Position numbers and translations under genes: made by a program. Under the pieces are notes generated by a model, which worked only from the letters and a program-made list of their open reading frames with translations, made no database searches and was not told the origin of the DNA. Shown one piece after another: positions 8,001 to 60,581 of a stretch of 64,000 bases of DNA; positions within the stretch are counted from its first letter, which is position 1; each line of letters begins with the position of its first letter. Source of the DNA: Solwaraspora sp. WMMD791 (GTDB lineage: Bacteria; Actinomycetota; Actinomycetes; Mycobacteriales; Micromonosporaceae); contig NZ_CP120737.1 of assembly GCF_029581195.1 (NCBI RefSeq), positions 3,635,001 to 3,699,000 on the forward strand, given 5' to 3'.

Positions 8001-10299
8001 ATTGGCGCTGGTGCTGCTGGCGATGGCCGCCGCGGTGGCGCTGCCCCGGCCCTGGTCGTTCCATGCCGCCGGGGTGCTGGTGGCGCTCGCCACCGTCGGT
8101 ACCCCGGCAGCGCTGGGCCTGCCCTGGTGGTCACCGATCGCGGTCGGCTGCCTGGTCGCGATCGGGTACGGCATCGCTTCCGTGGCCGCCACCGACCCGC
8201 AGGCGGCGACCGCCCGGGCCACCGTCGCCGCCGCCGTGGCCCTGTACGCCGCCGGCGCGAGTCTCGTCCGGCCGTGGACCACCGCAGCGGCGCTCGGCGT
8301 GATCGTGCTGACCTGCGTCGTCGTGGCCGTGCTCGGCCGGGTGATGGCGGCCGACATGCCGCCGGACGCGGCGGACGGCCCGGACGACGACGCCGACGAC
8401 GACACGGACCTCGAACTCGACCCGGCGGTGCGTCAGCGCCCGACGTGGGCGGCGGACGACCCCGCCACGATGCCCCGGCACCTGGCCACGGTCGGCGGTG
8501 CCGCCACCGGCGCCGCGTTGCTGGCGCTGCCCGGCGCGCTCGCCGCGTTCGCCGCCACCCTCGGCTGGACCACCGAGGTGGTGCTGACCAGTGCGTTGGC
8601 CGCGTCGGCGCTGGGCGTCGCCGTGCTGGCCGCGGTCCGCCGTCAGGTGCCGCACTACCTGCCGTACGCCACGGTCGGGGTCGCCGGCGGGGCCACCGTG
8701 ACGGCGCTTGCCTCGCTCCCGACCGACCTGCCCACCGGGATGTACGCCGCCGGCGCGGCGCTGCTCGCCGTCCTCGCCGAACTGCTCCGGGCCGCCACCC
8801 CGCCGCCGACGGAGCTGTCCCGGCTGAGTCGGCGGTGGAGCGGACTCGGCGAACGGCTGGGCCGACCCGGGCCGCTGGAGATCGGCCAGGAGTGGGCGAT
8901 CAGTCCGGTCAAGGGTGCCCTGGCCGCTGCCGCGCTGCCGACGGCGCTGGCTGTGGCGGCCGTGGCGCCGACGTTGACCACCGCGTTGGTCGAGCCGTAC
9001 CGGACGTTGGCCGCGATCTGGCAGGGGCCGCCGGCGGTGCTGCTCGATCCGCCGGCCGCCGCCGTCGGCCCGACCAACGTTCTCGCGGCGCTGCTGCTCA
9101 CCGTCGCCGCCGCGCTCGCCGCGACCGCGTTCAACAGCGGCCAGCCCGGGCAGATCGTTCCGGTGGTGCTGCCCGGCGTGGCGCTGACCCTGCTGATCAC
9201 GCCGCTGTCGTTCGGCATCGGCTGGCCGACGAGCACCACGGCCGCGTTGCTGGTCTTCGCGGTCGCGATGATCGGCCTGGCGTTGACCGCGCCGCCGCCG
9301 GACACCGAACGGCACCGGCCGCTGCGGATCGCCCGTCGGGTGCTGTTCATCATCGGCCTGGCCGCCGGCGGGGCCGGGCTCGCCGGTGCCCTCGCCAACG
9401 ACCAGCTGACCGTGTTCACCCTCGGCAGCGCGGTCGCCGTCGGCGCGGTCGCCGCGTACGGCGGGCGCAGCCAACCGGCCCGGATTCTCGGCTGGCTGTT
9501 CGCCTCGGTGATGGCGCAATTGTTCGTGCTGACCCTCGGACTGGTCGCCGGGTTGCCGCCGACCTGGTCGGCCTTCGGGGTGCTGGCCGTCGGGGCGGCG
9601 CTGCTGCTGTCGGCGACCCGGCTGCCCCGGCTCGACCATCCGGAGGCGGTCCGGGAACGGTCCGTCGTCGAATGGAGCAGCTACGCCGCGGCGCTGCTGG
9701 CCCTGGCGCTGGCCTACAGCTCCACGCCGCACCTGGCCGGGCTGCTGGCCGCCTGGGGTGCCGTTCTCGGGGTGACCGCCACCCGGCCTGGCCGGCGGGC
9801 GTTGGAGCGCCGGATCCTGTTCTGGACCGCCGTCGGCTGTGAGATCACCGCCTGGTGGATGCTGATGCGCATCGCCGACGTCGCGCTCATCGAGGCCTAC
9901 ACGCTGCCGTTCGCCGCGCTCGCCCTGCTCGTCGGGGTGCTGGAGCTACGCCACCGGCCGGACCTGAGCAGCTGGACCGCGTACGGGCCGGCGCTGGTCG
10001 CGACGTTCCTGCCGACCCTGGTGATCGTGATCAGCGACGGGGACAACAGTTTCCGGCACGTTCTGCTGCTGCTCGGCGCGGTCGGCACCCTGCTGCTCGG
10101 CGCGATGAGCCAGCAGCAGGCCCCGGTGGTCGTCGGTACGGTGGTCAGCGCGGTCACCGCGCTGCACGCGCTGACCTTCTTCGGCCCGTGGCTGGTGCTG
10201 ATCCCGGTCGGCCTGGTGCTGCTGGCCCTCGGGGCGAGCAGCGAATGGCGACGCCAGACCCAGGAGCGGGTCCGGGGTGCACTGCGCGGGATGCGCTGA
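5086..10299 (+). CDS. Giant polytopic membrane protein with N-terminal zinc ribbon
   Basis: 1737 aa from the ATG at 5086, which has GGAGGAGG 5 nt upstream (an in-frame GTG at 5071 is less well placed). Residues 7, 10, 20 and 23 are Cys in a CxxC-CxxC zinc ribbon. A short charged helix/coiled-coil (about 30-75) and a disordered Pro/Gly/Arg-rich stretch follow. From about residue 165 to the end there are dozens of hydrophobic segments of Ala/Val/Leu, interrupted by long disordered loops near 330-440 and 1090-1130. It resembles the very large actinobacterial membrane proteins annotated as SCO7613-like (DUF2157-type repeats), but I cannot place it firmly and no catalytic motif is visible. It is probably monocistronic: a terminator precedes it, and a palindromic element and convergent purE follow it. 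Confidence 0.88.
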   Translation: MSTAYRCTSCGRTVPAAATCSRCGAAQPQFAEDLARIERSIAEMKAREVALAKEQKQMAADLQAAIFQRDILSTGGAAGRRGPAPRISVRRRAGRRPPTAEAGAAPPRFPRQTPHRSGDAGTDGGPPPGSDEPGYPPASADDDPTRVLSADGTRPEASPQSIQNVLLGLGALMAMVVFAAVANSTLPDATRLLILLTGTVLLLVAPPVVAARGLRSTAETIAAVALILVPIDGYALWVTDAVRSGPVSPAVFAGLTFVVTALVAGGYAATTGLQLPRYAMVLAVQPIVPLLCYDLILGPAGWALALAAVAVVDLLLVRLLTGSGRFTSGAWLTGRAGRATADGAAAPASPAGLVAPPQRRSTDPAAPPGGPTAPTDDPATTADGPADPGTAAGSGASRPEGAPEEADAVVGADLPGDAGPDRRAGRRGPGWTPPAPSAAMLWLRDLIWTLHGLAVAVALAYAVAAVLSADTVPAAVRAGAVLVIAAGVGLIGGFTLGYKPVPDIAAGVFTLAVIGAASRIVAVGLPGRALLLIAAVVAIAGIGVRALPETLRRGPQLAATATLGVLGVLVAGSALRAALAPVRAALPAWQTELSDYQQRLDAYAGPADWQLALAALLITVAAAVAVPVEWRREATVTGVTLTALAVPASFDLPWYAACWPPVLAAVVVAGAGLFAGSERSARVHVGCAAVLGAAGAGAALARPGATAAVLLVLAAAGVLIAVAGSLPEIRRRPAADPVAGWAAGGAAFALPGGVAAFVAAMVPAPGPTGPALQQTTAPILAAAFLAVCGALCYAALAQVAERQIPRPLTIGTGLGALAVTAATFGSPGATVADVWVAVALLLGGVLLFMTPSIDANRRADRLLDGTDYAAAAAIAVLVGTLARISAIVAPGIELVASAALALLVAVAIRAMPQHWQRGPVLGVAASGAVIAVLAGYTAVAGGIRALATPGQLWQADLTAWSVETTANAWQVPLALVLLAMAAAVALPRPWSFHAAGVLVALATVGTPAALGLPWWSPIAVGCLVAIGYGIASVAATDPQAATARATVAAAVALYAAGASLVRPWTTAAALGVIVLTCVVVAVLGRVMAADMPPDAADGPDDDADDDTDLELDPAVRQRPTWAADDPATMPRHLATVGGAATGAALLALPGALAAFAATLGWTTEVVLTSALAASALGVAVLAAVRRQVPHYLPYATVGVAGGATVTALASLPTDLPTGMYAAGAALLAVLAELLRAATPPPTELSRLSRRWSGLGERLGRPGPLEIGQEWAISPVKGALAAAALPTALAVAAVAPTLTTALVEPYRTLAAIWQGPPAVLLDPPAAAVGPTNVLAALLLTVAAALAATAFNSGQPGQIVPVVLPGVALTLLITPLSFGIGWPTSTTAALLVFAVAMIGLALTAPPPDTERHRPLRIARRVLFIIGLAAGGAGLAGALANDQLTVFTLGSAVAVGAVAAYGGRSQPARILGWLFASVMAQLFVLTLGLVAGLPPTWSAFGVLAVGAALLLSATRLPRLDHPEAVRERSVVEWSSYAAALLALALAYSSTPHLAGLLAAWGAVLGVTATRPGRRALERRILFWTAVGCEITAWWMLMRIADVALIEAYTLPFAALALLVGVLELRHRPDLSSWTAYGPALVATFLPTLVIVISDGDNSFRHVLLLLGAVGTLLLGAMSQQQAPVVVGTVVSAVTALHALTFFGPWLVLIPVGLVLLALGASSEWRRQTQERVRGALRGMR

Positions 10300-51367: not shown

Positions 51368-51771
51368 GGCACCGACCATAGGCCATCCCACCGACGCCGG
51401 CCTCCGGCCGACCGGCGGGTCGGGTGGGCTGGTCGACCTGCCGGTCGGTCGGCTCGCCGGGTCGGCGTCTGCCGGCAGCCGGACGGGGTGATTCCCCGAT
51501 AGAAACACCAATGCCACGAGGCGGCACTACCGGGCAAATCGACGAGGCGTTGCCGAACAAAAATCGACATCGACCTGCCAGAAACCTGCCGAACAGCCAG
51601 TGATGAAGATCACATGTATTGATGACGATCTTAGTTACTCTTTAGGATCTCCACGGCAGCGAGATAAGCACAATTGATCGGCACGTCGCCACATGCCCAC
51701 CAGATCAATATCAGTCATGGACGCCCGTTCATCTCGATGCGATTTGATGCACAGGAGGGACAACTCCGCCG
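51368..51771. other. Divergent promoter region of the amino-acid operon
   Basis: About 400 bp between the DUF885 start and the operon start. GC content drops clearly from 51540 to 51700. The only signal I see is the promoter at 51619-51648; no palindrome or gene is convincing. The 124 nt between the promoter and the first start codon form a long 5' leader that could be regulatory. Confidence 0.55.
51619..51648 (+). promoter_or_regulatory. Probable promoter of the amino-acid operon
   Basis: TTGATG (51619-51624) and TAGGAT (51643-51648) are spaced 18 nt, fitting an actinomycete SigA-type promoter on the operon's strand. Confidence 0.55.
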
Positions 51772-52314
51772 ATGCCGCTTCTCGCCACAAAATCGCTGCG
51801 CGTTCACACACTCGGACCGTCGGGCACCAATTGCGAGGCAGCCGCTCACCACTGGCTCCAGCAGCGGGGCCTGCCGAATGGAGCTGTCGTGCTGCATCCC
51901 ACGCTGGAACGCGCGGTGCAGGACGTGCTGGCCGAACCCGAGTCGAGCGCGCTGCTCGCCTGCGTGGTCTATCCACACCTGCACGAAATCGTGTTCAAGA
52001 ATCTGACAATGCTGACCATGCGGGACTGCTTCGTCTTCCCGACCCACAACATGGTGTACGCAGGGCGACCCGACACCGACTGGCGAACTGTCGCCAGCCA
52101 CCCCGCTCCAGTCAACCTCCTCGACGGTCGCGACGTCGAGATCATCCTCGTCAACAGTAATTCGGCGGCCGCCGCGACCTGCTCGGCCGGAAACACCGAT
52201 GCCTGCATAACCACACTACCCGCAGCCCAACGCCACCAGTTGGACATACGAGCCGACTTCGGGCCGGTCCCGATGGGGTTCAGCCTGCACGCCCCGCGAG
52301 AATGCGATGTCTGA
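51772..52314 (+). CDS. Prephenate decarboxylase-like protein (BacA/SalX type)
   Basis: 180 aa, a single PDT-like domain. LGPSGT (residues 14-19) is the prephenate dehydratase opening motif. SHPAPVNLL (108-116), LVNSNS (126-131) and PMGFSL (167-172) match BacA of bacilysin synthesis as I remember it, which removes prephenate's carboxylate without aromatisation; SalX and AerD are relatives. The dehydratase TRF motif is absent, and PM.FSL stands in its place, supporting decarboxylase rather than dehydratase. First gene of the operon; it overlaps the aminotransferase by 8 nt (ATGTCTGA). The true substrate is inferred. Confidence 0.8.
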   Translation: MPLLATKSLRVHTLGPSGTNCEAAAHHWLQQRGLPNGAVVLHPTLERAVQDVLAEPESSALLACVVYPHLHEIVFKNLTMLTMRDCFVFPTHNMVYAGRPDTDWRTVASHPAPVNLLDGRDVEIILVNSNSAAAATCSAGNTDACITTLPAAQRHQLDIRADFGPVPMGFSLHAPRECDV

Positions 52315-53215
52315 ATCGACCAGAATCGTGTGGCTCGACGGTCGGCTATGGGACGCCTCCAAAGTCGGTTTGTCGTTGTGGAACCACTCCCTGCACTACG
52401 GGTTCGGTGTCTTCGAAGGGCTACGGGTCTACGCCCGCCCCGACGGGCCACACGTGTTCCGGCTCGCCGACCACGTACGGCGGCTCTACCGCTCGGCCGA
52501 GCACATCGGGCTGGAGATCCCCTTCGACCCGGAAACGGTCACCGCCGCGCACGCACAGGTCCTGGCGGCCAACGGCATCACCGAGGGGTACCTGCGCCCG
52601 ATCGCGTACCTCGGTGACGGGCTGGCCGGGCTCACCGACACCGGCGTCCCGGTCCACCTGGCCGTCCTGGCCTGGCCGTGGCGTCCGCCAGCGACCCAGC
52701 CGACCGGCATCAGCCTCACCGTCTCACCCATCCGCAAGCCCTCCGGCGAGGCGTTTCCGCTCCAGGCCAAGGCGACCGGCTCCTACCTGGCTTCGAAGAT
52801 CGCCTATCTCCGGGCCCGGCGTCTGGGGTTCGACGACGCGGTGCTGCTCGACGCGCACGGCATGGTCTCGGAGACCACCGCGCAGAACCTGTTCGCGGTG
52901 GTCGACGGCCGCTTGCTCACCCCGCCAGCCGAGAGCTGCCTGCCCGGGATCACCCGCGCCACCGTGATCGACCTGGCGCGACACGCCGGCATCACCGTCG
53001 CGGCAGAGGAACTGCCGCCCGGTCGACTCGGCGACGCCGACGAGGTCTTCCTCACCAGCACCGCCGGCGAGGTACGACCGGTCGGCCGGATCGACGACCA
53101 CGTACTCGGCGACGAGGGCCGGCCAGGGCCGGTCACCCGGCTGCTCGCCACGGCGTACCGCGAACTGGTGACCGGCAGTCACGCCCGACCGACGGAGGAA
53201 CCGATCCATGTCTGA
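52307..53215 (+). CDS. Class IV (branched-chain type) aminotransferase
   Basis: 302 aa, fold-type IV PLP enzyme like IlvE/D-amino-acid aminotransferase. SLHYGFGVFEGLRVY is the conserved N-terminal block; PLP Lys155 lies in QAKATGSYL; TTAQNLF and LPGITRATVI are the phosphate and substrate loops, and EVFLTSTAGEVRPVG the C-terminal block. It is shorter and separate from housekeeping IlvE, and in this operon should transaminate the pathway's 2-oxo acid. It overlaps both neighbours by 8 nt with the same ATGTCTGA sequence. Confidence 0.9.
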   Translation: MSESTRIVWLDGRLWDASKVGLSLWNHSLHYGFGVFEGLRVYARPDGPHVFRLADHVRRLYRSAEHIGLEIPFDPETVTAAHAQVLAANGITEGYLRPIAYLGDGLAGLTDTGVPVHLAVLAWPWRPPATQPTGISLTVSPIRKPSGEAFPLQAKATGSYLASKIAYLRARRLGFDDAVLLDAHGMVSETTAQNLFAVVDGRLLTPPAESCLPGITRATVIDLARHAGITVAAEELPPGRLGDADEVFLTSTAGEVRPVGRIDDHVLGDEGRPGPVTRLLATAYRELVTGSHARPTEEPIHV

Positions 53216-53924
53216 TGACGCTGTCGTCGACCAGCACCGTACGGTCGACCGGATCGTCAAGGCCGCGGGCATCACCACCTGCACCGTCTCCGACGTCCTC
53301 GACGGGCTCGGCATCGCGAACGCGGTCCTCGACGTCGACATCCGCCGGGTGGCCGGAGCACCCGGGCTGTTCCACGGCGCGGCGTACCCGGTCGAATGGG
53401 TGCCCAACCGCAAAGGCCCCCGGATCACCGCCGCCGGCCCGAGCACCTGGAGCCAGGTACGCGACTTCCTCGTGCCCGAGGTGACCGACGGCTCCGGCCG
53501 GGTCTACGTGGCCGGCTCCGGTGACCTGATCCGCGACGCGGCTCTCGCCGGCGGCCTGTCCTGCACGTACCTCGCCGAGCAGTTGCGGTTCGAGGGGATC
53601 GTGCTGGGCGGGGCGGTCCGGGACCGGGACGTCGTGGGCCGGTTGACCACGCCGGTGCTGGCGACCGGCTACGTGCCGGTCGACACCCAGGGCAGCTACC
53701 GGGTCGCCTCGACCGGCGGCGACTGCCTGGTGGCGAACGTGGTGGTCCGCCACGGCGACTGGGTGTTCGCCGACGACAACGGGGTCGTGGTCGTGCCGGC
53801 CGACCGGCTGGCCGAGGTCCTGGCCGTCGCCGGCGAGATCGAATCGACGGAGCGGGGCATCCTCGACCGGATCGCGGCGGGTGAGCGCCTGCCGGACATC
53901 GTCGACTCGCTCGGGCGGATCTGA
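53208..53924 (+). CDS. RraA-family protein, HMG/CHA aldolase-like
   Basis: 238 aa. The RraA fold is clear: TTCTVSDVLDGLG at the N-terminus, GDLIRDAALAGGLSCTYLAEQLRFEGIVLGGAVRDRDVV in the middle with the Arg-Asp pair of the metal/pyruvate site, and DCLVANVVVRHGDWVFADDNGVVVVP after it. Family enzymes are 4-hydroxy-4-methyl-2-oxoglutarate/oxaloacetate aldolases or decarboxylases, or regulators of RNase E. In this setting a carbon-carbon lyase or a decarboxylase acting on a 2-oxo acid is more likely than a ribonuclease inhibitor. Followed by an 84-bp gap. Confidence 0.88.
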   Translation: MSDDAVVDQHRTVDRIVKAAGITTCTVSDVLDGLGIANAVLDVDIRRVAGAPGLFHGAAYPVEWVPNRKGPRITAAGPSTWSQVRDFLVPEVTDGSGRVYVAGSGDLIRDAALAGGLSCTYLAEQLRFEGIVLGGAVRDRDVVGRLTTPVLATGYVPVDTQGSYRVASTGGDCLVANVVVRHGDWVFADDNGVVVVPADRLAEVLAVAGEIESTERGILDRIAAGERLPDIVDSLGRI

Positions 53925-54008
53925 CCGCGCCGGCAAGCCCACGGCGCACCAACACCCTGACCCAGCGACACGCTCACCGCACCAGCGAGCTCACCAAGGA
54001 GATGGCGG

Positions 54009-54704
54009 ATGGAAAAGACGACGACGCGCCTGGTCGAGATAACCAGGCCCGACGTGGACCTGGCCGAACTGCAACGGACCTTCGACGGCATTCCGCGCGA
54101 CCCGTACCTGAAGGTCGGCGTCCGACACCGCACCCAGTCCCGCTTCCGGTACGAACCCGACCGGCTCGTGCTGCTCGACCGGGTCGACCTCTACCAGAGT
54201 TCCGACATCAACCCTCTGGAGCAGTACGGCGGCATCGTCCGGACGTACCCGGACATGCCGGCGTGGGTACAGACGAGCCCGGCCTTCCGCGCCTTCATCG
54301 ACCACTGGCTGTCGCTGGTACCGGTACCGGTGACCGAGTTCTCCGCGCACCAGATCCGTACGGTGGGCGACGGGTCGCCGGTGCCGGAGGGCCGCCACCG
54401 CGACGGCTACGAGTACGTGGCCGTGTTCGTGGCGAAGCGGCACGGCATCACCGACGACTGCGCCCGCACGACCGTATGGGACGCGGCCACCGAGGAGCGG
54501 ATCGTCGACGAGGTGGTCCTCCGCGACGGTGAGATGGTCACCTTCGACGACCGGCTCGTGCTGCACGACGTTTCCCCGCTGGTGCCGTCCGGCGAGGTCA
54601 CCGACGCCTACCGGGACGTGATCATCCTGACCTTCCCGGACCACAGCAAGACGCTGGAGCACGGCAAGGTCGTCGCGGAATCGCAGAAGGGTGGGTCGTC
54701 GTGA
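54009..54704 (+). CDS. 2OG-Fe dioxygenase, isoleucine-dioxygenase type
   Basis: 231 aa, PF10014-like. Fe ligands: His130 and Asp132 in PEGRHRDG, distal His186 in LVLHDVSP; Arg202 in AYRDVIILTF should hold 2-oxoglutarate. Family members include the Bacillus L-isoleucine 4-hydroxylase, which hydroxylates free amino acids and lies beside an exporter gene. Here it probably tailors the amino acid made by the operon. AAGGAG sits 7 nt before the ATG. The GTGA overlap with the cupin suggests coupled synthesis. Confidence 0.9.
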   Translation: MEKTTTRLVEITRPDVDLAELQRTFDGIPRDPYLKVGVRHRTQSRFRYEPDRLVLLDRVDLYQSSDINPLEQYGGIVRTYPDMPAWVQTSPAFRAFIDHWLSLVPVPVTEFSAHQIRTVGDGSPVPEGRHRDGYEYVAVFVAKRHGITDDCARTTVWDAATEERIVDEVVLRDGEMVTFDDRLVLHDVSPLVPSGEVTDAYRDVIILTFPDHSKTLEHGKVVAESQKGGSS

Positions 54705-55039
54705 CCACGGTCCACGAATGGTTCGCGCCGGCCTCGGCCGGCCCCGGCAGCGAAGTCATCCCCGGCTACCACGGCCGGTTCGTGCACGGCGAGCACCTGA
54801 CCGTGGCGCACTGGACGGCGGTCGCCGGCGCCGAGGTCCCGCTGCACGACCACCCGCACGAGCAGATGGTCAACTGCATCCGGGGCAGCTTCGAGATGCG
54901 CGTCGGCGACCAGACCTTCATGATGGGCCCGGGAGACACCGTCGTCATTCCCGGCGGCGTTCCACATTCGGCGCTCGCACACACCGATGTGTACTGCATC
55001 GACGTGTTCCATCCGGTCCGCGAGGACTACCGGCTCTAG
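54701..55039 (+). CDS. Small single-domain cupin
   Basis: 112 aa from a GTG overlapping the oxygenase stop. Metal motifs HDHPHEQ (near residues 49-55) and a second motif PGGVPHS are present, so a metal-binding cupin is expected. In bacilysin synthesis the cupin BacB isomerises the decarboxylation product; that protein is a double cupin, so this one may isomerise, bind or dioxygenate a pathway intermediate. Eleven bp separate it from the exporter. Confidence 0.85.
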   Translation: MTTVHEWFAPASAGPGSEVIPGYHGRFVHGEHLTVAHWTAVAGAEVPLHDHPHEQMVNCIRGSFEMRVGDQTFMMGPGDTVVIPGGVPHSALAHTDVYCIDVFHPVREDYRL

Positions 55040-55049
55040 GCTGACCCAG

Positions 55050-55766
55050 ATGACCGCCGCCATCCTCGCGTTCCTGGTGTTCGCCGTCTCCGCATCCCTG
55101 TCGCCGGGGCCGAACAACCTGCTCATGGCGGCGTCCGGGTCCAGCCGGGGCTTCGTCCGCTCCGTACCGGCCATTCTCGGCGTCTCGGTCGGCTTCCTTG
55201 TCCTGCTGCTCATCAGCGCGACCGGGGCGGCCGCCGTACTGACCGGCAACGACCGACTGGTCCTCGCCCTCAAACTGGTCGGTGGCGCCTACCTGCTGTA
55301 CCTCGCATGGAAACTCGCGACCGCCCCGGGCGTTCTCGTCGTGCCGTCCGACGACGACGGCCGGGGCGACCGGGTGCCAGCGGCAGGGCAGGAGGCCGCA
55401 CCGGACCACCCTGCGGCGCCGACCGGCGACACCGGCCCCGCCCGCACCGTCAGCCGGCGGGCGGCCACCGCCGCCCCCGGCTGGCAGGTCGGGTTCCTGC
55501 ACATGCTGGTGCTGCAGTTCGCCAACCCCAAGGCCTGGGCGATGGCGCTGTCCACCGTCGTGACCTTCCAGCCGTCGTTTCCCGGTTGGGCCGGCTTCGT
55601 CCTGCTCTGCCTGCTGTTCACGATCGTCAACCTGTTCGCGAACAGCGCCTGGGCACTGCTCGGCCAGGGCATCGGATCGTTCCTGGACCGACCACAGCGG
55701 ATCCGGGCGTTCAACGTCGCGGCCGGCGTGCTGCTCGCCGCCTCGGTCCTGACCATCATGCTCTGA
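55050..55766 (+). CDS. LysE/RhtB-family amino-acid exporter
   Basis: 238 aa from the ATG at 55050. Six helices: about 1-25, 40-65, 70-92, 160-180, 185-205 and 215-238. SLSPGPNNL and GFVRSVPAILGV are the N-terminal family block, and NPKAW the central one. Between helices 3 and 4 lies an unusual hydrophilic insert of about 50 residues (Asp/Gly/Ala/Pro/Thr-rich). Its place at the end of the operon suggests export of the product. Intrinsic-type hairpin follows at 55785-55819. Confidence 0.9.
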   Translation: MTAAILAFLVFAVSASLSPGPNNLLMAASGSSRGFVRSVPAILGVSVGFLVLLLISATGAAAVLTGNDRLVLALKLVGGAYLLYLAWKLATAPGVLVVPSDDDGRGDRVPAAGQEAAPDHPAAPTGDTGPARTVSRRAATAAPGWQVGFLHMLVLQFANPKAWAMALSTVVTFQPSFPGWAGFVLLCLLFTIVNLFANSAWALLGQGIGSFLDRPQRIRAFNVAAGVLLAASVLTIML

Positions 55767-55784
55767 CTAAGGCGGCGGTCCTTG

Positions 55785-55819
55785 CCGCCCCAGGCCCGGT
55801 CGTGCTCTGACTGGGGCGG
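55785..55819. terminator. Hairpin between lysE-like gene and the Ig-protein gene
   Basis: CCGCCCCAG (55785-55793) pairs perfectly with CTGGGGCGG (55811-55819) around a 17-nt loop; no U-tract. It separates the two convergent genes. The sequence TGCTCTGACT..GGCGGCGGTC occurs twice nearby (55759-55780 and 55803-55824, two mismatches), the first copy carrying the exporter's stop codon. Confidence 0.6.
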
Positions 55820-55822
55820 CGG

Positions 55823-56818
55823 TCACGGCTGTTGGCGGCTGGTGGTGATCGAGAGGGTCCGGGTCGCGGTGATCCCGTTCGCGTCGATCACCTTGACGGT
55901 GAAGGTGAAGGTCCTGGCCCGGCTCGGGTGCCCGACGATCGCACCGGTCCTGCCGTTGAGGGTCAACCCGGGCGGCAACGGGCCCGCGCCCGCCACCATC
56001 CGCCAGCGGTACGGCCCCTCGCCACCGGTCGCGGACAGCTCCGACTTGTACCAGCGGCCGACCCGGCCGGGTTCGAGCGACTCGGTGGTGACGGCCAGCG
56101 GTGCGGCGGGCGTGGTGAAGCTCGACCGTGCGCCGGTCGTGGTGCCGGTGCCGTCGGTGATGCGCAGCCGGAAATGGTACGTCGTCAGCGGGGTCAGCCC
56201 GGTCAACTCGGCCCGGACCAGTTGCACCCCGGTGCCGGTGACCGGACCGACCGGTGACGTCTGGCCGTACCCGGGGGTCGGACCCCACTCGAAGGTGGCG
56301 GTGGTCGCCGGGCCGACGGCGGTGACCACGCCGTTGAGTACGGCCGTCGTGCCGGTCACGTCGCTGGCCGGCGCGGTCAGCCCGGCCGCGCAGCGCGGCG
56401 AGTCGAGAGTCGCGACCGCCTCCTGCCCGTCGACGGACCAGGCCACCGCGGGGAAGGCATTGGCGTTGAAGACCGCCGCGAACACCCGGGGGTAGTGGCC
56501 GACGTTGAAGACGCTCGGCTGACCCTGGTATCCGAGACCCGGATACACCTGGTTCGCGTCGCCGAACTCCAGCAACTGCTGGGCGCCCGCCTCGTATCCG
56601 AAGTAGATGGTGTAGACGCCGGTACCGTCGGGCCGCTCCTGGATGCAGTCCACGAACGGCCGGACCTGACCTGGTGCGGCGAACGCCTGTGGCACCGCCA
56701 GGCCGCCGGCCAGCAGGGTCGCCGTTGTCACCGCGAGCACGGAGAACAGCCGGCGTCGTCGTCGGGCCGGCCGGAGCCTGCGGGTGGAAAGTCGGTGGTG
56801 GCGGGTGGCCGGAGCCAT
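55823..56818 (-). CDS. Secreted Ig/FnIII-like domain protein
   Basis: 331 aa from the ATG at 56818, with GGAGGAACC just upstream. A Sec signal peptide with an Arg-rich n-region is cleaved after about residue 48 (AFA/APG). The mature protein has a unique N-terminal domain with a Cys pair (VDCIQERPDGTGVY and DSPRCAAG), an FnIII-like domain (about 140-230: ATTATFEWGPTPGYGQTSPVGP, LTPLTTYHFRLRI) and a putative Ig domain (about 230-331: GGEGPYRWRMVAGAGPLPPGLTLNGRTG). The latter resembles He_PIG/putative cell-surface Ig repeats. Extracellular adhesin-type role possible; no enzyme motif. Confidence 0.85.
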   Translation of the reverse strand: MAPATRHHRLSTRRLRPARRRRRLFSVLAVTTATLLAGGLAVPQAFAAPGQVRPFVDCIQERPDGTGVYTIYFGYEAGAQQLLEFGDANQVYPGLGYQGQPSVFNVGHYPRVFAAVFNANAFPAVAWSVDGQEAVATLDSPRCAAGLTAPASDVTGTTAVLNGVVTAVGPATTATFEWGPTPGYGQTSPVGPVTGTGVQLVRAELTGLTPLTTYHFRLRITDGTGTTTGARSSFTTPAAPLAVTTESLEPGRVGRWYKSELSATGGEGPYRWRMVAGAGPLPPGLTLNGRTGAIVGHPSRARTFTFTVKVIDANGITATRTLSITTSRQQP

Positions 56819-56925
56819 GGTTCCTCCATAAGCGGTGTCTGTACCTCGGACTATGACGAGACGTAGCGCCCGGAACCATGAAGTAACACCGGCAGTTTCA
56901 CCGGCACGACCCGACCGCTGCCGGC

Positions 56926-59441
56926 TCAGCCGAGCTTGCGGTCCAGCTCGGCTGCCTCGGGAAGACCCAGTTCGGCGAAGATCCGCCGCGCCGTCGTCCA
57001 ATGCTCCTCGGCATCGCCGGGAGCGCCGCCAGCGGCGGCGATGTCGCCGAGCAGGGCCGCCGTCCGGGCCCGCCAGACCGGCACTCCGGCCGCCGCGTAC
57101 CGGCGCAGCGCCGCCTCGGCCCGCGCAGCGGCTGCCGCCAGCTCGCCCTCGGCCAGCAGCAGCATCCCGAGGGTGTAGTCGACGAACGCCAGGCCGTCCG
57201 GCAGGTCCATCTCGGTGAACATGACCTCGGCCTCGGTCAGCAGCTGCCGGGCCGCGCCCAGCTCACCCTGTTTCAGCCGCAGGTCCCCCAGCGTGGCCAG
57301 CACCTGTGCCCGCAACCGCCGATCATCGGTACGCCCGGCGGCCGTCGACGCCTCGGCAAGCGCCTCGGCCGCCGCGTCCAACGTACCGGCGGCCAGATGG
57401 GTGAGCCCGGCACCCAGCAGTGCCTGGGCCGTGCCCCGCTGGTCGCCGCTTCTCCGGAAGATCGCCAGGGCCCGACCGAACCGCTGCACCGCACCAGCCA
57501 GCTCACCCCGGGTCCGATCGCGACCGCCGCCTGCACCAGCGCGTGTCCCGTACCGGTGGGCATGCCGGCGGCGGCGAACAGCTCGGCTGCGGTGGCCAGC
57601 CGAGCGCTGGCGTCGGCGAGCCGTCCGGCGCTGCGGTCGTTCGCGCCGAGCAGCAGCAACGCGTTCGCCTGGCCGGCCGGGTCGCCGATCTCCGCAGCCA
57701 GCGTCAACGCCCGGGCCAGCAGGACATCGGCCCGGTCGAACTGTTGGCGTACGACGTGCCACTCGGCCAGCCGGTGCGCCATCCGGGCGGTGCCGGCGGC
57801 GTCGCCAAGGGCCTCGCAGCGCCGCAGCGTCCGCTCGGCCACGTCCCGCCACTCGTCGAAGAGCCCTCGGGTTGCCCAGTAGTCGACCATCGCGTCGGCG
57901 ATGGCAACCGCTGCCAGGGTGTCATCCGTCGCCAGGCCTTGACCGATCGCGGCAAGCAGCGCCGGCCGCTGCACATCGAACCAGCCCAGCGGGTCGGCCG
58001 CCAGTGCCGGATCCGCGTCGTCGTCGACCGGTGTGGTCGACATCGGCCGGGGCGCGCGCAGCGTGTCGCCGGGCAGGTGCCTGCTGGCCGTGTCGGCCAT
58101 CGCCGCGTACGCCCGGATGCCCCGGCGGACGGCGGCGGTCCGCACCCCGGCGTCCAGCTCGGCCGCCGCCGTCTCCCGCCCGTACGCCCGGATCAGGTCA
58201 TGGAACCGGTAGCCGGCCCGGCCACCGCCGACCTCGCTCTCAGCCGGCACCGCGTCGAGCAGGCTGGCCCGCACCAGCGCGTCGAGCGCCTCGGACGGGT
58301 CGGTGTCCAGCACCGCTGCCGCCGCCCAACCGGTCAGCGTCGGCGCGTCGAGCAGGCTGAGCAGCGGCAACGCCCGGCGGGCGGGCGCCGCAAGCAGGTC
58401 GACGCTGAGCGAGATGCTCGCCCGTACCCCGAGGTCGCCGGCGGTCAACCCGTCGAGCCGCTGCGACTCGACCGCCAACTGGTCACGCAACACGCCGATC
58501 GGTACGCCGGGCGCGACCGCCAGCCGGGCACCCACCACCCGTACCGCGAGCGGCAGGTGTCCACAGTGCCGCGTCACGTCACCGGCCGCGTCCACGTCGG
58601 CTGACACCCGCCGCGCCCCGGTGATCGTGCCCAGCAGCGCCAGCGACTCCGCCGGGGTCAGCACCCCGACGGCGACGAACCGCGCCCCGGCCAGCCCCGC
58701 CAGCGGATGCCGGCTGGTGACCAGCAGCGCGCCGCCAGCGGTGCCGGGCAGCACCGCGCGGACCTGTTCCTCGGCCGCCGCGTCGTCGAGGACCAGCAGC
58801 GCCCGCCGGTCGGCCAGAACGGAGCGGAGCAGGCCGACCCGCTCTGCCGTCTCGTCGGGCAACTCCCGGCCGGTGACCCCGAACGCGCGCAGTACGGCAG
58901 CGGTCAGCGCGCCGGCGGTCACCGGACCGGTGGCGGCGACGCCGCCAAGGTCGGCGAAGATCTGCCCGTCCGGGAAGTGCTCCCGCACCCGGTGGGCAAC
59001 GTGGACGGCGAGCGTGCTCTTGCCGACGCCCGGCGGGCCGGAGAAGGCGTACACGACCGGACTGCCCGACCTGCCCGCTGTGGCCAGTTCGGCGCTGATC
59101 TCGTCGACGAGGGTGGACCGGCCGACGAAGTCCGGGATGTCCATCGGCAACTGCGCCGGCCGCAGCGACAGCGGCCGCCGTACCTCGGGTTGCGGGCCGG
59201 GCCGGGCGGCGGACCGGAACCGCTGCAGCTCTTCCTCGCTGAGACCGAACGCGGCGGCCAGTCGGGTGATCGTCGCCCGGCGGGGCCGGGCTACGCGGTT
59301 GCGCTCCAGGTCACTGACGGCCCGTACGCTGAGCCCGGTCCGCTCGGCCAGCTCCTCCTGGGTCAGGCCGGCGGCGACCCGCAGCGAGCTGACGAGCTGC
59401 CCGAACCCGCCCCGATCGTGCTCCGCCGACACCCGGCACAT
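56926..59441 (-). pseudogene. XRE-NB-ARC-TPR (STAND) regulator broken by a -1 frameshift
   Basis: A regulator of about 838 aa if repaired. Residues 15-70 are a helix-turn-helix (LRVAAGLTQEELAERTGLSVRAVSDLERN). An NB-ARC ATPase follows with Walker A FSGPPGVGKSTLA, LLVLDDAAA and GHLPLAVRVVG. TPR repeats fill the second half. The frame is lost inside the TPR region at the C-run 57506-57509 (G-run on the coding strand). One extra G gives the smooth junction AVAIGPGGELAGAVQRFGRAL, and the other frame then continues the TPRs to 56926. Either a real mutation or an assembly homopolymer error. A TAGCAT box lies 6 nt before GTG 59432, so the message may be leaderless from there. Confidence 0.85.
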
Positions 59442-59693
59442 GCTAGACCAACAGCTCACCGCCGCCCGCCGCCGAGGCAGACCCGCCGAGGCAGAGCCCT
59501 CCAGTCACCGGGGTGCCCGATGACTCGATCCACATCGGTCCTGCGACGCGACACGCGGCAGTGCTGTCCGCTGTCGCGAAGTGGATCAGGACCGCCCACC
59601 GGCATCACGTCCAGGTAGAGTCCGGCAGCGTGGCGGCAGGGGTACGACCAGCCTGGGCCAACGGCCGCCAGGGTGGTCAGGAGGTGAGGCGCG

Positions 59694-60473
59694 ATGCCGT
59701 TCACGGGTAGCCACGTCGCGGCGGTACTGCCGCTGACCCGGACGGCGTGGCTGGTCCCCTCGGCCCTGGTGATCGGGAGCATGGTCCCCGACCTTCCCTA
59801 CTTCCTGCCGCTGCCGGTGGACGCGACACTGACCCACTCGCTCGTCGGTGTCCTCACCGTCGACGTGATCCTGGGTCTGCTGGCGGTGGCCGTGTGGCAC
59901 GGGCTGCTGGTCCGCTTCCTGACTGCCATCTCGCCGGCTCCGCTACGCAAGCGCCTGCCACCGCCCGCGGCCCGGCGGCCGAGGTCGGCGCACCGGGTGG
60001 CGATGCTGGTTGCCTCGCTCGTGCTCGGGGCGTCGACCCATGTGCTGTGGGACTCGTTCACCCACGACGGCATGTGGGGCGCCACGCACATCGACTGGCT
60101 GGCCGAACCACACTTCGGCACGGCCGGCTATCGCTGGGCGCAGCGGGTGAGCAGCGTCGTCGGCGCGGCCGTCGTCACGGTCTGGCTGGTCCGATGGTGG
60201 CGTACGCGGCCGCCTGCGGCCAGACCCGCAGCCACGCAACCGCCACCGGCCGGTCGGCTGCTCATCGTGTCCGCGTGGACGACCATCGGGCTCGCCGCCG
60301 CCGGTGGTCTCGCTCTGGCCGCCGCTGGTGCCCCGACGCCCCAGCGCATGGTGTTCCTGGCCGTCACCTATGCCGGCGGCGCCGGTCTGGCGACCGTGAC
60401 CGTCCTCGCTGCCGCCGCCGCGCTGCCTCGCGCCGTACGGCTCCTCCGCCACCGGGACGCGCCGTCGACGTGA
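59694..60473 (+). CDS. DUF4184 membrane protein
   Basis: 259 aa. Starts MPFTGSHVAAVLPL, the DUF4184 opening block, with CAGGAGGTG 6 nt upstream. Six or so helices; IGSMVPDLPYFLPL and LVLGASTHVLWDSFTHD are conserved blocks with Asp and His residues that look like a metal-binding or catalytic centre, as in membrane-bound metal-dependent hydrolases (YdjM-like). The exact function is unknown. Divergent from the STAND regulator. Confidence 0.88.
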   Translation: MPFTGSHVAAVLPLTRTAWLVPSALVIGSMVPDLPYFLPLPVDATLTHSLVGVLTVDVILGLLAVAVWHGLLVRFLTAISPAPLRKRLPPPAARRPRSAHRVAMLVASLVLGASTHVLWDSFTHDGMWGATHIDWLAEPHFGTAGYRWAQRVSSVVGAAVVTVWLVRWWRTRPPAARPAATQPPPAGRLLIVSAWTTIGLAAAGGLALAAAGAPTPQRMVFLAVTYAGGAGLATVTVLAAAAALPRAVRLLRHRDAPST

Positions 60474-60581
60474 GGCTCCCGGCAGCCTCGCCCGCCGGAG
60501 ACGACGTCAGTCCGGATCGTCGCCGGCCGCCGTCTACGCCAAGCTTGGGCTCCGCCACTACACCGCGCCCTGATCAGACAC

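Follow-up and report, generated by a model that had tools for sequence, protein, structure and literature searches.

A six-gene operon of Solwaraspora shares a three-gene core with distant bacteria and may make an exported amino acid from prephenate

In a 64,000-nt stretch of the Solwaraspora sp. WMMD791 genome (contig NZ_CP120737.1, positions 3,635,001 to 3,699,000, part of a single 6.93-Mb contig; hereafter the window), six genes at positions 51772-55766 appear to form a small, self-contained pathway that would make a free non-proteinogenic amino acid from prephenate and export it, a reading to which we assign a probability of roughly 0.55. We observed its gene content, a conserved neighbourhood, tree positions and residue patterns, and the feature that recurs elsewhere is a triad of genes encoding a prephenate dehydratase (PDT)-like protein (gene A), an RraA-like protein (gene C) and a single-domain cupin (gene E). 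A first-pass annotation, made from the sequence alone, had proposed that the six genes make, tailor and export an unusual amino acid. This core idea is partly supported and stands once two points are changed: the branch of A is not that of BacA/SalX, and the conserved core includes the RraA-like protein. To our knowledge, no product has been described for the six-gene operon or for its three-gene core.

The six genes lie on the forward strand with stop/start overlaps or short gaps, just as the first-pass annotation had described them. Gene A (51772-52314, 180 aa) matched PF00800 with 23.6 bits, just below the curated cut-off of 25.2, while gene B (52307-53215, 302 aa) encodes a class IV (IlvE-type) aminotransferase (PF01063, 177.8 bits against a cut-off of 28.5) and gene C (53208-53924, 238 aa) an RraA-like protein of the 4-hydroxy-4-methyl-2-oxoglutarate (HMG) aldolase fold (PF03737, over cut-off). 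Gene D (54009-54704, 231 aa) encodes a predicted Fe/2-oxoglutarate dioxygenase (PF10014, 127.2 bits against 23.1), gene E (54701-55039, 112 aa) the cupin (PF07883, over cut-off) and gene F (55050-55766, 238 aa) a LysE-type exporter (PF01810, 62.9 bits against 25.6), so that the earlier assignments of D and F agree with their Pfam scores. The A/B overlap spans 8 bases, ATGTCTGA, and the B/C overlap consists of the same 8 bases; C and D are separated by 84 bases, with AAGGAG preceding the D start, D and E overlap by four bases (GTGA), and 10 bases separate E from F.

Genes A, C and E were found together in nine loci: the window, a sister genome of the same genus (G1030, locus L038), a further genome of the family (G1185) and six Gammaproteobacteria (loci and genomes are numbered L and G). 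In G1030 all six genes are present and collinear, with 93-98% identity per gene except at the 5′ end of A, and in the seven remaining loci (L002-L006, L021 and L039) the three genes lie side by side; the collinear sister copy and these seven loci together make the operon more than a chance arrangement. When genome contigs were scanned with A, five relatives (50-53% identity) came up, all gammaproteobacterial, and in each of them the PDT-like gene is flanked by an RraA-like gene (46-50% to C) on one side and a cupin gene (37-42% to E) on the other. The sixth gammaproteobacterial triad (L021) came from a chromosome-sized Proteus mirabilis record in the plasmid collection, where the surroundings considered are those of one of two matching Proteus records. 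A gene for class-II 3-deoxy-D-arabino-heptulosonate 7-phosphate (DAHP) synthase follows the triad in five of these six loci (Buttiauxella, Aeromonas, Yersinia, Serratia and Proteus; Acinetobacter rudis is without it), which links the triad to the shikimate pathway and favors the origin from prephenate or a related acid proposed earlier; the same enzyme is encoded in the SalX-type loci L018 and L019. A separate strong PF00800 match (192-223 bits) was present in all five gammaproteobacterial genomes other than Proteus, and the cassette PDT-like gene itself gave a weak PF00800 match in four of the five.

The triad is uncommon. Only nine of 300 family genomes, its own included, carried a gene of A's group at 1e-15; three of these are the triad genomes (window, G1030 and G1185), and the other six have loci with DUF6421 and ATP-grasp genes. 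The C profile at 1e-20 picked out three of the 300, G000, G1030 and G1185, which are the same triad-bearing genomes, and C is the sole RraA-like match in its own genome. Among 72,556 plasmid records, C at 1e-20 matched only the two Proteus records, and two scans with A matched 76 and 82 records, of which ten had their surroundings read. The A profile matched five of 249 order genomes at 1e-8, A matched four of 396 phylum genomes at 1e-3 (strongly in its own genome only), and of 369 genomes of the class of Buttiauxella only Buttiauxella itself was matched by the A profile at 1e-12, which marks the cassette as rare; its Buttiauxella DNA had no blastn match in the E. coli collection. The site of the cassette differs between Buttiauxella, where it presumably lies between pepN-like and pncB-like genes, and Proteus, where we take the neighbors to be plsY-like and tsaD-like genes.

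In the genomes searched, the six-gene set thus occurred once complete and once with A shortened. As the full set recurred in only one of 299 other family genomes, and there with A shortened, the expectation of the first-pass annotation that the six genes co-occur in other genomes came close to failing. What does recur is the A-C-E triad, which makes the RraA-like protein part of the core. In G1185 (L039), the cupin, PDT-like and RraA-like genes adjoin one another inside a larger cluster, which also encodes HMGL-like, fumarylacetoacetate (FAA) hydrolase, short-chain dehydrogenase/reductase (SDR), condensation-domain, ketoacyl synthase (KAS) III, 3-hydroxyacyl-CoA dehydrogenase, thioesterase and aminotransferase proteins. 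A zinc dehydrogenase gene after the RraA-like gene there ends in an MbtH-like stretch.

The first-pass annotation had read A as a BacA/SalX-type protein distinct from housekeeping PheA. Housekeeping PheA is recognized by its TRF motif and its C-terminal ACT domain. PF00800 is the sole Pfam match in the 180 aa of A, which has no ACT domain, and in an alignment of 35 proteins TRF or SRF occurred in all six PheA rows and in none of the 29 others, A included. At this position the non-PheA rows read PMGF, as in A, or PM[AVIC]F, PMTW, RM[VL]W or similar (in alignment A2, the L004 row starts seven codons ahead of its ATG). The 35-row tree split the PheA rows from A at 100/100. The missing motif, the missing domain and this split rule A out as the housekeeping PheA, and a separate PheA-type gene is present elsewhere in the Solwaraspora genome.

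The other half of that reading did not hold. A is PDT-like and lacks TRF, but it fell outside the six-row clade (95/99) formed by BacA-annotated proteins of Streptomyces and Pantoea, a SalX-type protein and L008, L017 and L018, and we therefore rejected a place for it inside the BacA/SalX clade proper, in a tree whose rows included neither AerD nor Bacillus BacA and for which the tool warned of long branches around BacA/SalX. The BacA/SalX label set beforehand had covered seven rows including L037 and reached only 62/89; L037 came out with L009. A's own group comprised nine triad proteins, ten proteins from DUF6421 loci and two TdaC proteins, sampled from many Phaeobacter and Tritonibacter records. 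The tree did not settle the inner order of this group and is compatible with one origin of the triad or with several. A was 42-56% identical to its triad, DUF6421-linked and TdaC relatives, and among the tblastn rows listed it showed 42-46% identity to TdaC and 30-32% to BacA-annotated proteins. From its sequence, A is probably a prephenate decarboxylase-type enzyme of the TdaC/DUF6421-linked group. Comparison with solved structures gave A only a chance thioesterase match (E 0.2).

C was 42-52% identical to its triad relatives other than the sister copy, and its profile matched ten solved sequences, among them the HMG/4-carboxy-4-hydroxy-2-oxoadipate (CHA) aldolase 3noj (E 1.1e-4). Arg-123, Asp-124 and Glu-199 are the catalytic and metal residues of that enzyme, and it cleaves 4-hydroxy-4-methyl-2-oxoglutarate and 4-carboxy-4-hydroxy-2-oxoadipate to pyruvate plus pyruvate or oxaloacetate (PMC5065237). 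Mapped to 3noj only by the offset of the ranges reported, R138, D139 and E215 of C would correspond to these residues; the three are invariant in nine of nine triad rows. C thus has PF03737 and probably these positions in common with HMG/CHA aldolase and RraA, but it scored far below the NCBIfam cut-offs for both, and its context is biosynthetic. In E, residues H49, H51, H53, E54 and H89 were likewise invariant in all nine triad cupins, and the E profile matched 26 solved sequences with BacB (3h7j) third at 1.6e-14, which supports the comparison with BacB drawn in the first-pass annotation. BacB has two cupin domains in a chain of 243 aa, a build that E, as a single domain of 112 aa, does not have.

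B scored just over the PRK06606 cut-off (280.7 against 279 bits). It was 46% identical to the aminotransferase adjoining the PDT-like gene of G616, 41-42% to those of the G1116 and G1111 loci, 37% to that of the SalX-type locus L019, and 30-32% to the other IlvE-like gene of its own genome. With five gammaproteobacterial IlvE-type genes added, the tree placed ten PDT-linked aminotransferases, B among them, in one group (91/91), which fits the role in such a pathway that had been proposed for B; the ten rows were chosen after the first aminotransferase tree had been seen. In that first tree, the PDT-adjoining rows of L041, L042 and L044 had been labeled together with B and fell elsewhere, and in the second they carried no label. 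The first tree was built without matches of fewer than 220 aligned residues and without L007, L011-L015, L027-L033 and L049, the second without L052, L057 and L058.

D aligned with the solved PF10014 protein 9dq0 over H130-x-D132, H186 and R202, which we take to be its functional residues. Relatives of D were found in 12 of 72,556 plasmid records at 1e-8 (26-34% identity) and in four of 249 order genomes at 1e-10, its own included. F was 34% identical to a LysE protein encoded in a Serpentinimonas gene run with PDT-like and DUF6421 genes. LysE exporters accompany PDT-like genes in Serpentinimonas and in the BacA/SalX-type locus of Pantoea MT58, and other PDT-like gene runs have an EamA exporter (Pantoea SS70) or a drug/metabolite transporter (DMT; Staphylococcus xylosus).

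We infer each reaction of the pathway from sequence. A would first remove CO2 from prephenate while leaving the ring non-aromatic, as BacA does (PMC9147277), giving a dihydro-4-hydroxyphenylpyruvate. In this product E, as a BacB-like metal cupin, would then shift one of the ring double bonds so that it is conjugated with the pyruvyl side chain. C, predicted to be metal-dependent, would act on this side chain by way of an enolate bound to the metal; isomerization or hydration with retention of the 2-oxo acid is its likeliest reaction, although this is the least certain step. B would transaminate the 2-oxo acid, D would hydroxylate or otherwise oxidize the resulting amino acid, and F would export the product. 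As A's group often lies beside an iron-dependent amino-acid oxidase, an oxidized non-aromatic amino acid would be the most natural end product. We see about even odds that the triad opens a new route out of prephenate, with an RraA-fold protein dedicated to biosynthesis that modifies the pyruvyl side chain together with a decarboxylase and a cupin; the route would travel as a compact cassette (with class-II DAHP synthase, or with aminotransferase, 2-oxoglutarate oxygenase and exporter) and lead to a family of non-aromatic shikimate metabolites not yet known. A three-gene core common to distant bacteria and including an RraA-type enzyme suggests a further branch of the prephenate decarboxylase pathways, which supply building blocks such as anticapsin and also yield cyclohexenylalanine. 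The compact size of the cassette would allow it to be expressed in full in a laboratory strain. In the literature searched, which took in few subscription papers and is no proof of novelty, we found neither RraA combined with a prephenate/cupin pathway nor a biosynthetic role for the RraA-type fold.

A number of observations weigh against this pathway. Besides A falling outside the BacA/SalX clade, we found no activity report for any member of its own group, and a 2020 review states that the role of TdaC "remains obscure" (PMC7497051). AlphaFold models were poor (mean predicted local distance difference test, pLDDT, of 46.7 for A and 61.5 for C) and added nothing. By the range offset, aldolase Arg-195 would be Ile-211 in C; 4e2g and 9bwf outranked BacB as matches to E, in a broad family; and ten rows of aminotransferases encoded in the PDT-like loci L039, L041, L042 and L044 grouped with the other IlvE-like gene of the genome, three of them directly adjoining a PDT-like gene. 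The G1030 operon misses about 225 bases, comprising the region before A and A codons 1-21, so that A of the only other full operon is without the LGPxGTN motif lost with those codons. Finally, the gammaproteobacterial triad gene runs contained no aminotransferase, and Serratia alone among them had a transporter gene, of the major facilitator superfamily (MFS), just downstream of the triad; the triad product there need not be an amino acid.

These gammaproteobacterial runs, made up of RraA-like, PDT-like and cupin genes and usually DAHP synthase, speak for another explanation, in which A decarboxylates, E isomerizes, and after hydration C carries out a retro-aldol cleavage to pyruvate and a C6 4-hydroxycyclohexenone, with B, D and F serving a different or downstream step. 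The characterized aldolase of C's fold releases pyruvate (PMC5065237), and by range offset C appears to retain its Arg, Asp and Glu residues. On the other hand, the isoleucine in place of Arg-195, the PDT-linked-group aminotransferase between A and C in the window, and the oxygenase and exporter of amino-acid-handling families that follow would suit a retained 2-oxo acid better, and we regard side-chain cleavage as unlikely.

We hold it similarly improbable that A is an ACT-less prephenate dehydratase feeding phenylpyruvate to B, which would make the product a modified aromatic amino acid. Genes for the related TdaC carry a prephenate dehydratase annotation, and the review put forward phenylpyruvate as a possible TdaC product (PMC7497051), but the distribution of TRF/SRF (six of six PheA rows, none of the 29 others, A among these) does not fit a dehydratase, the genome already has its PheA-type gene, and it is hard to see what a BacB-like isomerase would do with phenylpyruvate. 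TdaC itself (L026, 6923-7528; L036, 2140-2772) was without TRF and grouped with A rather than with PheA, which suggests from sequence that TdaC is not a prephenate dehydratase. A and TdaC both carry [ST]HPAP and PMGF, and A is closer to TdaC than to BacA- or SalX-type rows, so that features shared by A and TdaC separate both from prephenate dehydratases and the operon bears on the role of TdaC. The TdaC neighbors differ from those of A, being glutathione S-transferase, thioesterase and acyl-CoA dehydrogenase genes, with no RraA-like, cupin or aminotransferase gene in the stretches read.

The operon lies in a variable segment of about 9 kb (51399-60520, not assigned a strand), delimited by blastn of the site against the six other genus members searched. 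Two of the seven genus genomes have the segment (51.4-60.5 kb); the other five show the flank encoding a DUF885 protein, then 0.4-3.7 kb, then a match to the window from 60.5-60.6 kb, and as no match is listed between these flanks, the segment is missing there. The closest flanking genes of the operon run in the opposite direction, encoding the DUF885 protein upstream and, downstream, an immunoglobulin (Ig)-like protein and a helix-turn-helix (HTH)-NB-ARC-tetratricopeptide repeat (TPR) protein. The G+C fraction of the operon was 0.694, against 0.730 for the window, and was equally low in 34 of 1201 same-size windows taken in 50-base steps. Such a site, together with the G+C fraction of A (0.639, against 0.730 for the window) and the loss from the sister copy of A's first 21 codons and the region before them, could mean that the operon was acquired, is now decaying and yields no product in this strain; we consider this quite improbable, as all six reading frames in the window are open and neatly overlapping and keep their conserved residues. 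The shortening of A in G1030 may itself reflect decay, another start or an assembly fault. Least probable is a route in which C performs pyruvate or oxalate chemistry through 4-hydroxy-4-methyl-2-oxoglutarate toward a branched glutamate-like amino acid, an alternative raised in the first-pass annotation that gained no support, since 3noj was among the matches to the C profile but C scored far below the HMG aldolase cut-offs, and the DAHP synthase and PDT-like protein beside C-type RraA proteins point to shikimate metabolism.

The proposed amino acid pathway can also be set against related systems. With bacilysin/anticapsin biosynthesis (BacA, BacB, BacG, BacF and BacC) the operon has in common a PDT-like protein, a BacB-related cupin and an aminotransferase. 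The Streptomyces comparison locus L034 holds a BacA-annotated gene, a cupin, two dehydrogenases, an MFS transporter and an aminotransferase; A is 31% identical to its BacA and lies outside the BacA clade, and the cupin of the window is half the length of BacB. The operon has RraA-like, PF10014 and class IV aminotransferase genes, and neither SDR reductases nor an amino acid ligase of the bacilysin type were found among the ten window genes scanned by Pfam. The locus L019 (family genome G604), which we take to be the SalX/SalW cyclohexenylalanine branch of salinosporamide, resembles the operon in that its PDT-like gene adjoins a class IV aminotransferase gene, and B falls in the same wider aminotransferase group; a class-II DAHP synthase gene lies nearby. 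A lies outside the SalX-containing clade, and where L019 and L017, which were similar by computation, have what are presumably PaaK-like and ornithine-cyclodeaminase-like genes, the window has RraA-like, cupin, PF10014 and LysE genes instead. A plasmid of Pantoea sp. MT58 (L035, 3663-9731) carries a SalX-type set of Dabb, PaaK-like, aminotransferase, BacA-annotated and ornithine cyclodeaminase family genes with a LysE exporter of its own.

Clusters of PDT-like and DUF6421 genes recurred in ten loci (L016, L022, L023/L073, L024, L025 and L040-L044) spanning Actinomycetes, Gamma- and Betaproteobacteria and a Staphylococcus xylosus plasmid, with an ATP-grasp gene in nine of the ten (Serpentinimonas, L024, being the exception), an aminotransferase gene in seven and a transporter gene in several. 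Their PDT-like proteins belong to the same group as A, and B-group aminotransferases occur in L016, L040, L043 and L022, but these clusters have DUF6421 and usually ATP-grasp genes where the window has RraA-like, cupin and PF10014 genes. The likely iron-dependent amino-acid oxidase would be DUF6421 there and PF10014 in the window; PolE, a DUF6421 protein, is an Fe- and pterin-dependent desaturase of L-isoleucine (PMC12614342).

Within the variable segment, the HTH-NB-ARC-TPR protein (57273-59459, reverse strand, by Pfam), which had only a partial match in G1030, could possibly regulate the operon. The losses in G1030 lie near positions 8530 and 4540 of L038, and a stretch matching 55.9-57.9 kb of the window is also gone there.

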